This document shows positions 32,170 to 36,357 of a DNA stretch of 64,000 nt, piece after piece; within the stretch, counting starts at the first letter, position 1; each line of letters opens with the position of its first letter. The stretch is from Flavobacterium ammonificans (GTDB lineage: Bacteria; Bacteroidota; Bacteroidia; Flavobacteriales; Flavobacteriaceae). The notes beneath the pieces are model-generated. The model did no database searches and was not told the DNA's origin. It saw nothing but the letters and a program-made list of their open reading frames with translations. The position numbers were made by a program, and so were the translations under genes. The stretch covers positions 1,612,001 through 1,676,000 of the forward strand of contig NZ_AP025183.1 in the NCBI RefSeq assembly GCF_020885975.1. Direction: 5' to 3'.

Positions 32170-32727
32170 ATGAATGTATTTTTTCAAACTTGGCCTTGGT
32201 ATGTTTCAGGTTTTCTAATTGGTTTGATTATGTTAAGTTTGATTTTTTTCGGAAAACAATTCGGTATGTCATCCAATCTAGAAACACTTTGTTCCATGTC
32301 AGGATTAGGTAAAAAAGTTTCTTATTTCAATTTTGATTGGAAAACCAATAAATGGAATTTGATGGTAGTTTTAGGCGCTATGCTTGGCGGATTTGTTGCC
32401 GTTAACTTTATGAGTGATCCAACTAATGTTACGATAAATCCAGCTACGGTTTATCAATTGTCTACACTTGGAATTGATGCTCCTGATGGAAAGTTAGCAC
32501 CCGATGCTCTTTTTGGAAATCAAATATTTGAATCACCTAAAAGTATTTTCATTTTATTAATTGGTGGAATTTTAATTGGTTTCGGAACGCGCTATGCTGG
32601 AGGCTGTACTTCTGGACATGCTATTTCAGGATTGAGTAATTTACAACTTCCTTCATTGAAAGCCGTGATTGGGTTTTTTATTGGCGGATTGATTATGGCG
32701 CATTTCATTTTACCTTTAATTTTTTGA
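32170..32727 (+). CDS. YeeE/YedE family transporter, first half
   Basis: 185 residues, membrane protein with about four helices and the motif GTRYAGGCTSGHAISG, where the Cys in GGCTSGH matches the conserved thiosulfate-relay cysteine of YeeE proteins. In Bacteroidota this family is commonly split into two consecutive genes; together they probably form one thiosulfate or related sulfur-compound importer in the inner membrane. The second half begins two bases downstream. No rhodanese or TusA gene is adjacent. Confidence 0.88.
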   Translation: MNVFFQTWPWYVSGFLIGLIMLSLIFFGKQFGMSSNLETLCSMSGLGKKVSYFNFDWKTNKWNLMVVLGAMLGGFVAVNFMSDPTNVTINPATVYQLSTLGIDAPDGKLAPDALFGNQIFESPKSIFILLIGGILIGFGTRYAGGCTSGHAISGLSNLQLPSLKAVIGFFIGGLIMAHFILPLIF

Positions 32728-32729
32728 TT

Positions 32730-33143
32730 ATGAAATACTTTAAATTTTTACTTGTAGGTTTTGTTTTCGGAATTGTTTTAACCAAATCAGAGGCGGTATC
32801 ATGGTACCGTATTTATGAAATGTTCCAATTTCAATCATTTCATATGTATGGAATTATTTCAGTTGCCATTGCAACAGGAATTATTGGCATTCAACTTATT
32901 AAAAGGAATAATATAAAAGCATTAGATGGTTCTGCCATTGTAATTAAGGATAAAGACAACAGCACCGCTCGATATATTTTTGGTGGTATCTTTTTTGGAT
33001 TAGGTTGGGGATTAGTAGGTTCTTGTCCAGGACCGATCTTTATTTTATTAGGAGCTGGATTTCTACCTGTAATTGTAGTATTTATAGGTGCTTTGATTGG
33101 AACTACTTTGTATGGAATTTTGAAGAAAAAATTACCGCACTAA
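32730..33143 (+). CDS. YeeE/YedE family transporter, second half
   Basis: About 137 residues from the ATG at 32730; a TTG two codons earlier overlaps the first gene's stop. It has about four membrane helices and the conserved Cys motif GWGLVGSCPGPIFILLG, complementary to the GGCTSGH motif of the preceding gene. The two should assemble as a pseudo-dimer equivalent to full-length YeeE. A terminator follows after 23 bases. Confidence 0.86.
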   Translation: MKYFKFLLVGFVFGIVLTKSEAVSWYRIYEMFQFQSFHMYGIISVAIATGIIGIQLIKRNNIKALDGSAIVIKDKDNSTARYIFGGIFFGLGWGLVGSCPGPIFILLGAGFLPVIVVFIGALIGTTLYGILKKKLPH

Positions 33144-33166: not shown

Positions 33167-33202
33167 TAGCATTTTCTTGAATTAGAAAATGCTATTTTTT
33201 TT
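33167..33202 (+). terminator. Terminator of the YeeE pair
   Basis: An 11-bp stem TAGCATTTTCT / AGAAAATGCTA with a six-base loop is followed by eight T on the plus strand. Its right arm includes the stop codon of the convergent lysoplasmalogenase gene. Confidence 0.85.
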
Positions 33203-33863
33203 GGTTTAAATTTAAAATTCCCCAAACAATACCATATTGAGCAGCCAAATAAGTAACCATAATTAAAAAGGAAGCAAATGGAATGGCTTGGTAAAATTTG
33301 TTAAATGCTAAAATACTATCAGAAGCAATAAATAGAATTGCACCAATTAATACGGATTGATAGGGTATTTTAGCCCATTGATAACTTCCTTTTAATGCAA
33401 AATACAACATACTGCTAATTACAACAGCATACACTATAACAGGCAAAGTAAGCGGTCCTAACTTCGGACCTAATGTAGTTATCATTCCAAAGAAATAAAG
33501 TAAAATAAGTCCTATTCCGGCTCCAAAACTAATTTTGTTAGAAATGGATGTAGTTACCGCTTGTTGGTTAAAAAGCACGATATAAAATACATGAGAAATC
33601 AAGAATGCTACTAAACCAATTATAAAATAGAGTTCGCCTTGATTAGCAAATAATAAAACAATATCACCAATCCATGAAAAAGTCAACGCAATTAAAAGAG
33701 TAGACTTAGTTTTGAACTTTTCTGATACATATACCGCAATTAGTAAAAAGGGAAGTAAAAAGGGTTTCATTAAACGTGCCATTTCTTCTTGCTCTAGTGC
33801 AGTTATAGCCAAATAGAGGAAACTAAATCCTAAATAAATAAATAGTACAGTTTTATTTTTCAT
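33192..33863 (-). CDS. Lysoplasmalogenase-like protein (YhhN/TMEM86 family)
   Basis: 223 residues with about seven to eight membrane helices covering the whole length. Two conserved acidic motifs of the family are visible: SWIGDIVLLF and ASDSILAFNKF. TMEM86 proteins hydrolyse the vinyl-ether bond of lysoplasmalogens to a fatty aldehyde and a glycerophospho-alcohol. It starts eleven bases after the stop of the hydroxylase gene, which resembles alkylglycerol monooxygenase, so the two are very likely one operon acting on ether lipids. Family assignment is good; substrate is inference. Confidence 0.85.
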   Translation of the reverse strand: MKNKTVLFIYLGFSFLYLAITALEQEEMARLMKPFLLPFLLIAVYVSEKFKTKSTLLIALTFSWIGDIVLLFANQGELYFIIGLVAFLISHVFYIVLFNQQAVTTSISNKISFGAGIGLILLYFFGMITTLGPKLGPLTLPVIVYAVVISSMLYFALKGSYQWAKIPYQSVLIGAILFIASDSILAFNKFYQAIPFASFLIMVTYLAAQYGIVWGILNLNQKK

Positions 33864-33874
33864 GTTTCAAATAG

Positions 33875-35140
33875 TTATGCTATCGCTAATTTTTCTGACT
33901 TGAAATCGGTACTTACAAAATACAAAGTTCCAAAAAAGGAAAGACTAATGAATGCCATTACTAAATAGGTTCCGTATGGAATGAGTTGATCAATTTGAAA
34001 CCAATCTCCTAACGCAACAACTACACCTATACCATAAGTAAAACGAATGGTTTCCCATAGCATGGCATATTTATTTGTATCCATTAATTCGGTATAACTA
34101 TACACACTGATAAAGATGAAAAAAGCATAGATAAAAATATTTTCTAAGCTTAGATTAGCAATTGAAAGATATAGAATACTCACTAATCCTAAGGTTAGAA
34201 ATAGTTGAAATAAAGACCAATACATTAATAGCTTTGAATGTTGCGAACCGTATTTTGTAAATTGATATACATTAGTGATTTTAATTACCGGATATTTTTC
34301 TTCAAAATTAGCCGGACGCCAACCAGTTGGTTGAAACCAAATAGTCAGTTTGTCTTTCCAATTCTCAGCGCGCCAAGCATCCGAAATTAATAACCAAAGA
34401 TGTTGAAAGTTAATACGGAATGGGTTCCAAGTTTGAGCGGGTCTTGTGATTCCAAAAACAGCTGGTACATCGTCTAACTCTTCTTGGAATGTTCCGAATA
34501 GTTTATCCCAAAAAATGAAAATCTGTCCGTGATTTTTATCCATGTATTCTGGATTTATGGCATGATGAACACGATGGTGTGATGGTGTCACAATTATTTT
34601 TTCTAAAATCCCCATTTTCTTAATGTGTTTGGTATGGTACCAAAACTGTAAAAACAAATGAATAGGCAAAGTAATAGCAATCACTTTGGCAGGAACTCCT
34701 ACGATAGCTGCTGGTAATAAAAGGAAAGTAAAAAGATTGACAAAACTTGAAATGCTTTGGCGTAAAGCACAAGATAGATTAAACTCTTCACTGCTGTGGT
34801 GAATAGCGTGTTTGTTCCATAAGAAATTGATTTGATGCGATAAACGGTGCGACCAATAGCCATAAAAATCAATTACAATAAACGCAATTAATATAGAAAC
34901 AATTGAAACCTCTTGTTGGAATAATGCTAAATGAATTGACATCCATTCATAAGATAGTAAAGTAATGCTTAATCCCAATACATCTTTTAATGAATTTACC
35001 ATACCGGAACTAATGCTTGATACGGAATCCATTAAGGGAGCTGTATCTTCTCCTTTGTAATATCCATACAATTTTTCAATGATAATCAATACCAAAAATA
35101 TCGGCATTGCGTAAACTAAAATAGCAGCATATTCTTTCAT
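33875..35140 (-). CDS. Fatty acid hydroxylase superfamily protein, alkylglycerol monooxygenase-like
   Basis: About 421 residues from the ATG at 35140 (a TTG three codons earlier is unlikely). The di-iron histidine boxes are complete: H98-R-L-S-H102, H111-A-I-H114-H115, H169 in FWYHT, and H188-H189-R-V-H192-H193. The spacing and the surrounding words (HHSSEEFNLSCALRQS, TPSHHRVHH, DKNHGQIFIFWDKLFGTF) match my memory of animal AGMO/TMEM195, as does the C-terminal membrane domain (about residues 290-410). AGMO cleaves alkyl ether bonds of glycerolipids and needs tetrahydrobiopterin. It is an inner-membrane protein and first gene of the pair. Confidence 0.85.
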   Translation of the reverse strand: MKEYAAILVYAMPIFLVLIIIEKLYGYYKGEDTAPLMDSVSSISSGMVNSLKDVLGLSITLLSYEWMSIHLALFQQEVSIVSILIAFIVIDFYGYWSHRLSHQINFLWNKHAIHHSSEEFNLSCALRQSISSFVNLFTFLLLPAAIVGVPAKVIAITLPIHLFLQFWYHTKHIKKMGILEKIIVTPSHHRVHHAINPEYMDKNHGQIFIFWDKLFGTFQEELDDVPAVFGITRPAQTWNPFRINFQHLWLLISDAWRAENWKDKLTIWFQPTGWRPANFEEKYPVIKITNVYQFTKYGSQHSKLLMYWSLFQLFLTLGLVSILYLSIANLSLENIFIYAFFIFISVYSYTELMDTNKYAMLWETIRFTYGIGVVVALGDWFQIDQLIPYGTYLVMAFISLSFFGTLYFVSTDFKSEKLAIA

Positions 35141-35211: not shown

Positions 35212-35487
35212 TTAGATGATTTCGGCACTAAGCCCTGCTGCCAATAATTGAATGCATTGTGGCTTTAGTTTATCATAGATATCTGTCTTGACTGTACATT
35301 TACCGTTGTAATGAATAATTAGCGAACATTGTTCGGCTTGTTCTGGAGTATGATCACATACGCGTACCAAGGTTTCAATTACGTGATCAAAAGTATTGAC
35401 ATCGTCATTGTACACTACAATTTCATTATTGGCAGGTGTCGTTTCTTGGGTACGAACTCGTTCTCTTACTTTTTCTTTAGTACTCAT
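35212..35487 (-). CDS. clpS: ATP-dependent Clp protease adaptor ClpS
   Basis: 91 residues with the NEIVVYNDDVNTFDHVIETLVRVCDHTPEQAEQCSLIIHYNGKC core; the N-degron pocket residues N, D, D and the H are in place. ClpS delivers substrates with bulky N-terminal residues to ClpAP/ClpCP. No clp gene is adjacent. It is directly downstream of prmA (36 bases) on the same strand. Confidence 0.95.
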   Translation of the reverse strand: MSTKEKVRERVRTQETTPANNEIVVYNDDVNTFDHVIETLVRVCDHTPEQAEQCSLIIHYNGKCTVKTDIYDKLKPQCIQLLAAGLSAEII

Positions 35488-35523: not shown

Positions 35524-36357
35524 CTAATTTACATATTTTAACGAAACCCAATTGTTTCTTTGGAATTTTTTGACAAAAGTTAAGCCTTTTTCGGTACATG
35601 AATCATCAATAAACGGAATGTCTTCTTCGTAGAAACCACTAAACAAAATAGTTCCCCCAGGATTCAAACAATCGACATACGATTGCATATCGTTTAATAA
35701 GATATTACGGTTGATATTAGCTATGATCAAGTCGTATTTTTTGTCTTTTAGTAAAGCAGCGTCACCTTCATAAACACTAATGTGTTGGCAATGGTTACGT
35801 TCGGCATTTTCAATTGAATTTAAATAACACCAATTGTCAATGTCAATAGCATCAATCGGTTGAGCGCCTTTCATTTCAGCTAAAATAGCTAAGATTGCAG
35901 TTCCACATCCCATGTCTAAGGTTTTTAAGCCTTTCATATCCATTTCTAGCAAATGCTGAATCATCATGTGAGTAGTTTCGTGATGTCCTGTTCCAAAACT
36001 CATTTTTGGTTCAATAACAATATCAAACTCAGCGTCTGTTTTTGGGTGGAAAGGAGCGCGAACATGGCATTTTCCATCCACTTCAATAGGTTCAAAATTT
36101 TTCTCCCACTCTTCATTCCAATTGACTTGTTCAATTTCCTCAAAGGTATAGTCGATTTTGAACTCCTCTGATTGAAGAATGTAAACATCATCAAGAATAG
36201 TTTCGTCCCATAAGTCTTTTTGCACAAAAGCATCAATGCCTGTTTCAGTTTCAGTGAAACTTTCAAATGCTTTTTCTCCTAATTCGGCAATTAGAATTTC
36301 TGAACCTAGTTCTTTTGGTTCAATAGTAAAATGGTATCCGATATAACTATTTGACAT
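35524..36357 (-). CDS. prmA: Ribosomal protein L11 methyltransferase
   Basis: 277 residues: an N-terminal substrate-recognition domain, then a class I methyltransferase with GHHETTHMMIQHLLE, the SAM-binding motif DMGCGTAILAILAEMKGA and IIANINRNILL (the N-I-N motif of PrmA). It methylates ribosomal protein L11. The gene follows tpiA, but a terminator lies between them, so it probably has its own promoter in the gap at 36358-36412. It is upstream of clpS in the same transcript. Confidence 0.95.
   Translation of the reverse strand: MSNSYIGYHFTIEPKELGSEILIAELGEKAFESFTETETGIDAFVQKDLWDETILDDVYILQSEEFKIDYTFEEIEQVNWNEEWEKNFEPIEVDGKCHVRAPFHPKTDAEFDIVIEPKMSFGTGHHETTHMMIQHLLEMDMKGLKTLDMGCGTAILAILAEMKGAQPIDAIDIDNWCYLNSIENAERNHCQHISVYEGDAALLKDKKYDLIIANINRNILLNDMQSYVDCLNPGGTILFSGFYEEDIPFIDDSCTEKGLTFVKKFQRNNWVSLKYVN

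Follow-up and report, generated by a model that had tools for sequence, protein, structure and literature searches.

An AGMO-like hydroxylase with an altered cofactor site and a lysoplasmalogenase homologue: a putative two-gene ether-lipid cleavage cassette in Flavobacterium

A membrane hydroxylase gene resembling animal alkylglycerol monooxygenase (AGMO), followed by a gene of the YhhN/TMEM86 family, raises the question of whether the two products act together on ether lipids and, if so, with what cofactor the hydroxylase would work. The two genes lie in what we call the window, i.e., the whole 64-kb stretch of DNA that was analysed (1612001-1676000), which is part of a single-contig genome of 2.27 Mb. 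The order of the minus-strand genes is prmA, clpS, AGMO-like hydroxylase and YhhN, and the plus-strand YeeE-like genes converge on the YhhN end (Table 1). The hydroxylase start was placed at the ATG at 35140, with a TTG nine bases upstream of it as a possible alternative; its stop ends at 33875, and the spacer to YhhN consists of bases 33864-33874. A sequence-only reading of this DNA had placed the two genes here with 11 bases between them, and this arrangement was borne out, both genes being on the minus strand.

Table 1. Features of the hydroxylase-YhhN locus, in window coordinates
Feature	Position	Strand	Remarks
AGMO-like membrane hydroxylase, Gln/His subtype, 421 aa	33875..35140	-	FA_hydroxylase, PF04116
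Gln103 codon, aligned with BH4-binding Glu137 of human AGMO	34832..34834	-	human residue from PMC3617469
His204 codon, aligned with essential Tyr236 of human AGMO	34529..34531	-	human residue from PMC3617469
YhhN/TMEM86-family lysoplasmalogenase homologue, 223 aa	33192..33863	-	PF07947, 8/8 proposed catalytic residues
clpS, upstream neighbour, marker of insertion/deletion site	35212..35487	-	
prmA, upstream neighbour, source of genus tree	35524..36357	-	
Two YeeE-like (Sulf_transp) genes, convergent neighbours	32170..33143	+	

The Pfam FA_hydroxylase domain is matched by residues 84-217 of the hydroxylase (E 3.3e-28), whose best named matches are from Flavobacterium species. Human AGMO depends on eight essential histidines, and its activity is abolished by mutating Q162, H201, D233, N235, Y236, W243 or D244 (PMC3617469). 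In our alignment the hydroxylase keeps all eight motif histidines, i.e., the full set that had been read from the letters, together with the counterparts of Q162, H201, D233, N235, W243 and D244, and both motifs quoted at that time, HHSSEEFNLSCALRQS and TPSHHRVHH, are found in the translation. The remaining two positions are where the cofactor comes in. Binding of tetrahydrobiopterin (BH4) by the human enzyme needs E137, the neighbour of the second motif histidine, a glutamate that PMC3617469 describes as absent from the other proteins of the motif family; Glu137Ala raises the Km for BH4 18-fold and is not listed there among the mutations that abolish activity, as Tyr236Ala does. The alignment places Q103 of the hydroxylase, directly after the second motif histidine, at the human E137 position and H204 at that of Y236, and this Gln/His pair is invariant among the intact hydroxylases of the genus that were examined. 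The AGMO context seen in the sequence-only reading thus holds for the histidines but not for the BH4-binding Glu137, which is Gln here, nor for Tyr236, which is His. Since both residues are replaced, the cofactor question becomes the key point of this locus, and by its sequence the hydroxylase is AGMO-like but no typical AGMO.

A predicted structural model of the hydroxylase has a mean pLDDT of 86.8 overall, with lower values at the last ten residues and a low-confidence stretch at about residues 101-140, part of the motif region. Residues 303-420 form mostly long helices in this predicted model, which supports the proposal of an extra C-terminal membrane part; no AGMO-specific Pfam domain was matched in the C-terminus, even at E 10, and the protein has 421 aa vs near 445 aa for AGMO. 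Sequence searches returned no solved homologue of either the hydroxylase or YhhN at E up to 1, and Foldseek with the hydroxylase model gave nine matches when E was allowed to reach 10 and none within 0.001, a result that does not speak against the fold. We would also like to note that a second FA_hydroxylase protein (a 287-aa frame, G000:C1:1212720-1213130) is encoded in the same genome.

The YhhN protein matches its Pfam family (PF07947) with E 1.1e-41 and 143 bits, against a curated cut-off of 25.6. Eight residues have been proposed as catalytic in TMEM86A/B, all but one Gly being crucial (PMC11994398), and their counterparts here are K33, G66, D67, H91, G174, S181, D182 and Y205, as matched via motif and spacing with human positions taken from that paper and not from an aligned human sequence. 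All eight are invariant in 57 of 57 distinct aligned sequences, and three of the four distant YhhN proteins encoded beside an AGMO-like gene keep the full set, Gln replacing His in the fourth (L215). Lysoplasmalogenase activity has been measured for the M. tuberculosis YhhN and reported for that of Legionella (PMC9052158). The family is also represented in E. coli. Like TMEM86A/B, Legionella Lpg1991 and M. tuberculosis Rv1401, the protein is covered by PF07947 over nearly its whole length and has the eight residues, and the G182-to-Y213 spacing is the same as in TMEM86A; unlike these known lysoplasmalogenases, it would belong to a cassette with an AGMO-like oxygenase. The presence of all eight proposed catalytic residues supports its earlier assignment as a probable TMEM86/YhhN lysoplasmalogenase. 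Elsewhere in the samples, YhhN-family genes form tandem arrays, with seven in a row in one genome (G138:C77 47155-52512; nine matches in the whole genome) and four each in two others (G096:C14 273502-276291 and G195:C12 9427-12255).

To what extent the pairing holds was followed through a genus sample of 199 genomes, including the window's own, with matches accepted at E up to 1e-60 for the hydroxylase and up to 1e-15 for YhhN. These thresholds count the window-type hydroxylase only, and other AGMO-like genes occur in some genus genomes without it, e.g., G127 (L222) and G586 (L220). The hydroxylase was found in 78 genomes, YhhN in 79, both in 76 and neither in 118. In 75 of the 76 two-gene genomes, the genes are adjacent on the same contig and the same strand with the hydroxylase first, the median gap between matched ends being 32 bp and exceeding 69 bp in two only (G217 and G244); in the 76th (G357), they lie on two contigs. 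Adjacency thus holds in 75 of the 78 hydroxylase-bearing genomes and is no peculiarity of this one genome. Single genes were also seen: two genomes have the hydroxylase without YhhN (G324 and G268), three have YhhN alone, flanked by prmA, clpS and the YeeE-like genes (G205, G344 and G387), G217 has YhhN beside a broken hydroxylase with two of the eight histidine positions altered, and G555, a member of the genus included in the phylum sample, matches YhhN strongly and lacks the hydroxylase. Co-occurrence in the genus gives a Fisher p of 1.3e-48 (76, 2, 3, 118) with kinship ignored, and since the Fisher test ignores it, a separate kinship-aware test was run.

For that test, prmA was searched in the 199 genomes (193 matches), and genomes were chosen among about 150 matches listed. 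Besides the window, the resulting prmA DNA tree of 101 genomes contains the 40 genomes with neither gene that scored best and 60 more, among them three YhhN-only genomes, one hydroxylase-only genome and G217, scored as without an intact hydroxylase; it was built by a quick method, and 27 of its 98 inner branches have good support. On this tree, at least 20 changes of state are needed for the hydroxylase and 17 for YhhN, both being rough counts from a noisy single-gene tree. When only well-supported branches are used, eight independent pairs differ in the hydroxylase, and among these YhhN shifts in the same direction in an average of 5.9, shows no difference in 2.1 and never shifts in the opposite direction (sign test, median p 0.03, range 0.016-0.125). 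All 40 sampled genomes that lack both genes still have clpS after prmA, and neither gene was detected in the stretch, which in one case ends 94 bases past clpS; the YeeE-like gene pair was found beyond clpS in 23 of the 40. Within the genus, the hydroxylase and YhhN are for the most part gained or lost jointly.

Two simpler accounts of the adjacency were rejected on these data. Chance adjacency is at odds with the 75 adjacent pairs in 78 genomes, the joint state changes and the empty sites, and vertical synteny is not the sole cause, because the pair appears and vanishes jointly while its neighbours stay. As a separate observation on the pair-less loci, clpS lies about 640 bases further from prmA in L246, L249, L252, L253 and L267, with something between the two genes.

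Outside the genus, the picture is looser. Among 199 genomes of the family sample, 56 have a full-length hydroxylase (about 50% identity; one of them, in G150, is split into two frames), 82 have YhhN and 31 have both (p 0.016); the hydroxylase occurs without YhhN in 25 of the 56, and YhhN occurs without the hydroxylase in 51. As read from match coordinates, none of the 30 other family genomes with both genes has them side by side, and tblastn of the window's YhhN against 29 other family loci, each with flanks of some 1.5 kb (shorter in L013), found no match. These single-gene genomes and non-adjacent pairs of the wider family mean that each gene can do without the other in some genomes. Of the 296 genomes in the phylum sample, 29 carry the main hydroxylase clade and 25 of these have YhhN, vs 29 of the 267 without that clade; once the genus is removed, the figures are 14 of 18 vs 27 of 260. 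YhhN is also present in 8 of 15 phylum genomes of a distant AGMO-like group (matches of 250-278 bits; p 0.0017), and four of the 24 distant AGMO-like loci examined outside the genus have the genes adjacent (L205, L211, L215 and L231), all four being among the bacterial sequences with the greatest likeness to human AGMO. The genes are associated across the phylum, and physical linkage is found in some lineages only. Conserved adjacency, joint gain and loss, empty sites and co-occurrence in the phylum together lend strong support to the sequence-only reading's idea of a functional unit of two genes.

In a tree of 135 rows, the window enzyme belongs to a 22-row clade (support 100) nested in a clade of 110 mostly Bacteroidota rows (support 100), with the human row outside; the human AGMO sequence forms one long branch, the place of which is uncertain. 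BLAST with the human sequence finds a distant bacterial group closest to human AGMO (36.5-43% identity for the 15 best matches), in a clade other than that of the window enzyme, and its top matches, L211, L231 and L205, are all beside YhhN. The window enzyme ranks about 80th of 134 in that search, with 34% identity over 372 aa. Taken together, the hydroxylase is a relative of AGMO, probably from a sister clade.

We surveyed the cofactor-site residues in the 135 tree rows, among which are a small number of duplicates as well as the human and window rows. Residues at the E137 and Y236 positions tend to covary, with Glu/Tyr in 35 rows, Gln/His in 24, Lys, His, Ser or Arg combined with Leu in 41 and other combinations in 35. 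In the 127 rows with enough flank, YhhN lies within 500 bp in 19 of 22 Gln/His rows, in one of five Glu/His rows and in none of the 100 remaining rows. Among the three Gln/His rows that have no YhhN close by, L099 and L225 encode the same protein on contigs of equal length and probably stand for one genome. Of the distant YhhN-adjacent loci, L205, L231 and L215 are Gln/His and L211, the sister of L205 and L231, is Glu/His. Against a link between the residues and YhhN stand L211, which is Glu/His and yet adjoins YhhN, L202-L204, which are Gln/Tyr without an adjacent YhhN, and L119, which is Lys/Leu without YhhN yet lies inside the Gln/His clade. The tree has three changes to Gln/His, too few for significance, and no pair contradicts the YhhN link. 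From these sequences, the Gln/His pair appears to mark YhhN-linked enzymes, if imperfectly, and the Gln/His state of the window enzyme looks derived. The rows with Lys, His, Ser or Arg at Glu137 and Leu at Tyr236 make up a third AGMO-like type (L004-L032 and many of L122-L200), in many of which PSQHRVHH replaces PSHHRVHH and none of which, where flank is sufficient, adjoins YhhN.

Pterin genes were surveyed in 48 AGMO-bearing genomes picked by hand, in which the pterin-recycling enzyme PCD (PF01329) and Biopterin_H were searched. PCD is present in 8 of 18 Gln/His genomes vs 30 of 30 others, a difference with a Fisher p of 6.7e-6 that ignores kinship, 15 of the 18 Gln/His genomes being from one genus. 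Seven of these 15 keep PCD, as does G437, and the PF01329 search found none in the window's genome; in the distant family f3, the Gln/His genomes G470 and G523 are without PCD, and the Glu/His genome G509 has it. A Biopterin_H-like ORF was found in 38 of the 48 genomes, the window's included, where a 587-aa ORF matches Biopterin_H in two stretches (G000:C1:1438828-1439634). Because seven of the 15 genus Gln/His genomes keep PCD and the window's genome keeps this ORF, pterin use is still conceivable. In the same survey, the L202, L203 and L204 enzymes of the distant group, which are Gln/Tyr near Glu/Tyr relatives, come with PCD and represent intermediate states.

Our preferred reading, to which we give a probability of roughly 0.55, is that the two genes make up an ether-lipid cleavage cassette in which the cofactor site of the oxygenase is altered. 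The reactions, substrates, electron donor and physiology of the cassette are what we infer, family membership being the support for an ether-lipid function of the pair. AGMO acts on alkyl ethers and YhhN on vinyl ethers, in both cases on substrates with a free sn-2 hydroxyl and with release of a fatty aldehyde (PMC3617469, PMC9052158). By analogy, the hydroxylase, presumably a di-iron enzyme, would oxidise the first O-alkyl carbon of a lyso-ether glycerolipid, and the resulting hemiacetal would break down to a fatty aldehyde; YhhN would hydrolyse the O-alkenyl (vinyl) ether of lysoplasmalogens, also giving a fatty aldehyde, so that the two together could clear alkyl and alkenyl chains alike. 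Animals, anaerobic bacteria and, of the aerobic bacteria, myxobacteria are documented to contain plasmalogens (PMC9131029), which makes outside sources likely, and the ether lipids would most likely be taken from animals, protists or other microbes. The cassette might then serve both as a means of obtaining food and to remove membrane-damaging lyso-lipids. As the Glu and Tyr of the BH4 site became Gln and His, the hydroxylase would probably receive its electrons from a donor other than tetrahydrobiopterin, or would handle BH4 differently.

The readings that compete with this one were weighed against the same evidence. An ordinary BH4-dependent AGMO, in which Glu to Gln has no consequence, beside an ordinary lysoplasmalogenase would account for the six other essential residues being kept, for PCD in seven of the 15 genus Gln/His genomes and for the human Glu137Ala enzyme, with its 18-fold higher Km, not being listed as inactive in PMC3617469. 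We nevertheless regard it as rather unlikely: the Gln/His pair does not vary among the intact genus enzymes that were examined, the Tyr236 position changes jointly, Tyr236Ala kills the human activity (PMC3617469), and PCD is absent from the window's genome. Set against animal AGMO (TMEM195) more generally, the hydroxylase shares the FA_hydroxylase family, the eight histidines, the six essential residues and the C-terminal membrane helices (predicted here), and it differs in Glu137 to Gln, Tyr236 to His, its largely Bacteroidota clade and the pairing with YhhN. For alkyl-ether cleavage without BH4 there is one precedent, the NADPH-dependent alkylglycerol cleavage of Leishmania donovani (PMC3617469), to which we liken the enzyme by description.

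It is more doubtful still that the hydroxylase acts on some other cell lipid or natural product, with YhhN having a substrate other than lysoplasmalogen. An AGMO-related bacterial enzyme, the cycloprodigiosin cyclase of Pseudoalteromonas rubra, is known to cyclise prodigiosin (PMC7911779), a likeness again drawn by description, and the sole NCBIfam match of the hydroxylase is the ornithine lipid hydroxylase OlsE (NF052566). That match is weak, its 65.7 bits being far below the cut-off of 475, and the model has 293 positions vs the 421-aa protein here. Three of the bacterial sequences most like human AGMO also adjoin YhhN, moreover, which points to ether lipids. A sequential route, in which the Gln/His enzyme desaturates an alkyl ether to a vinyl ether that YhhN hydrolyses to the aldehyde, would fit the finding that YhhN and the Gln/His subtype are paired almost without exception, and a fold superfamily that includes desaturases such as sterol C5-desaturase, but it seems the least probable of the three given the three YhhN-alone genomes, the one with YhhN and a broken hydroxylase and the two hydroxylase-alone genomes in the genus sample, and given that the known plasmanyl desaturase CarF/PEDS1 belongs to a separate Pfam family, which we take to be PF10520. 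A search for PF10520 gave no match in the window's genome, a result without weight because the control gave none in 14 genomes either.

The cleavage cassette with an altered cofactor site can also be put more boldly. The YhhN-linked Gln/His enzymes might form a class of oxygenases or desaturases for alkyl ethers that does without pterin, a proposal that we consider unlikely. In the boldest form, the hydroxylase would turn a lyso-alkyl lipid into a lysoplasmalogen that YhhN hydrolyses immediately, giving a biopterin-free two-enzyme route for breaking ethers, and such enzymes would go back to AGMO-like ancestors dependent on BH4, in which two cofactor-site residues changed together about three times. 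We found no description of the hydroxylase-YhhN pair in the literature, judging mostly by titles and abstract openings.

A bacterial AGMO relative that is naturally coupled to a lysoplasmalogenase, with another residue in the place that binds BH4, could prove workable as an enzyme, and the Gln/His enzyme could be used to test which residues set pterin dependence. For the organisms themselves, the cassette could reveal how many Flavobacterium species feed on, or withstand, ether lipids.
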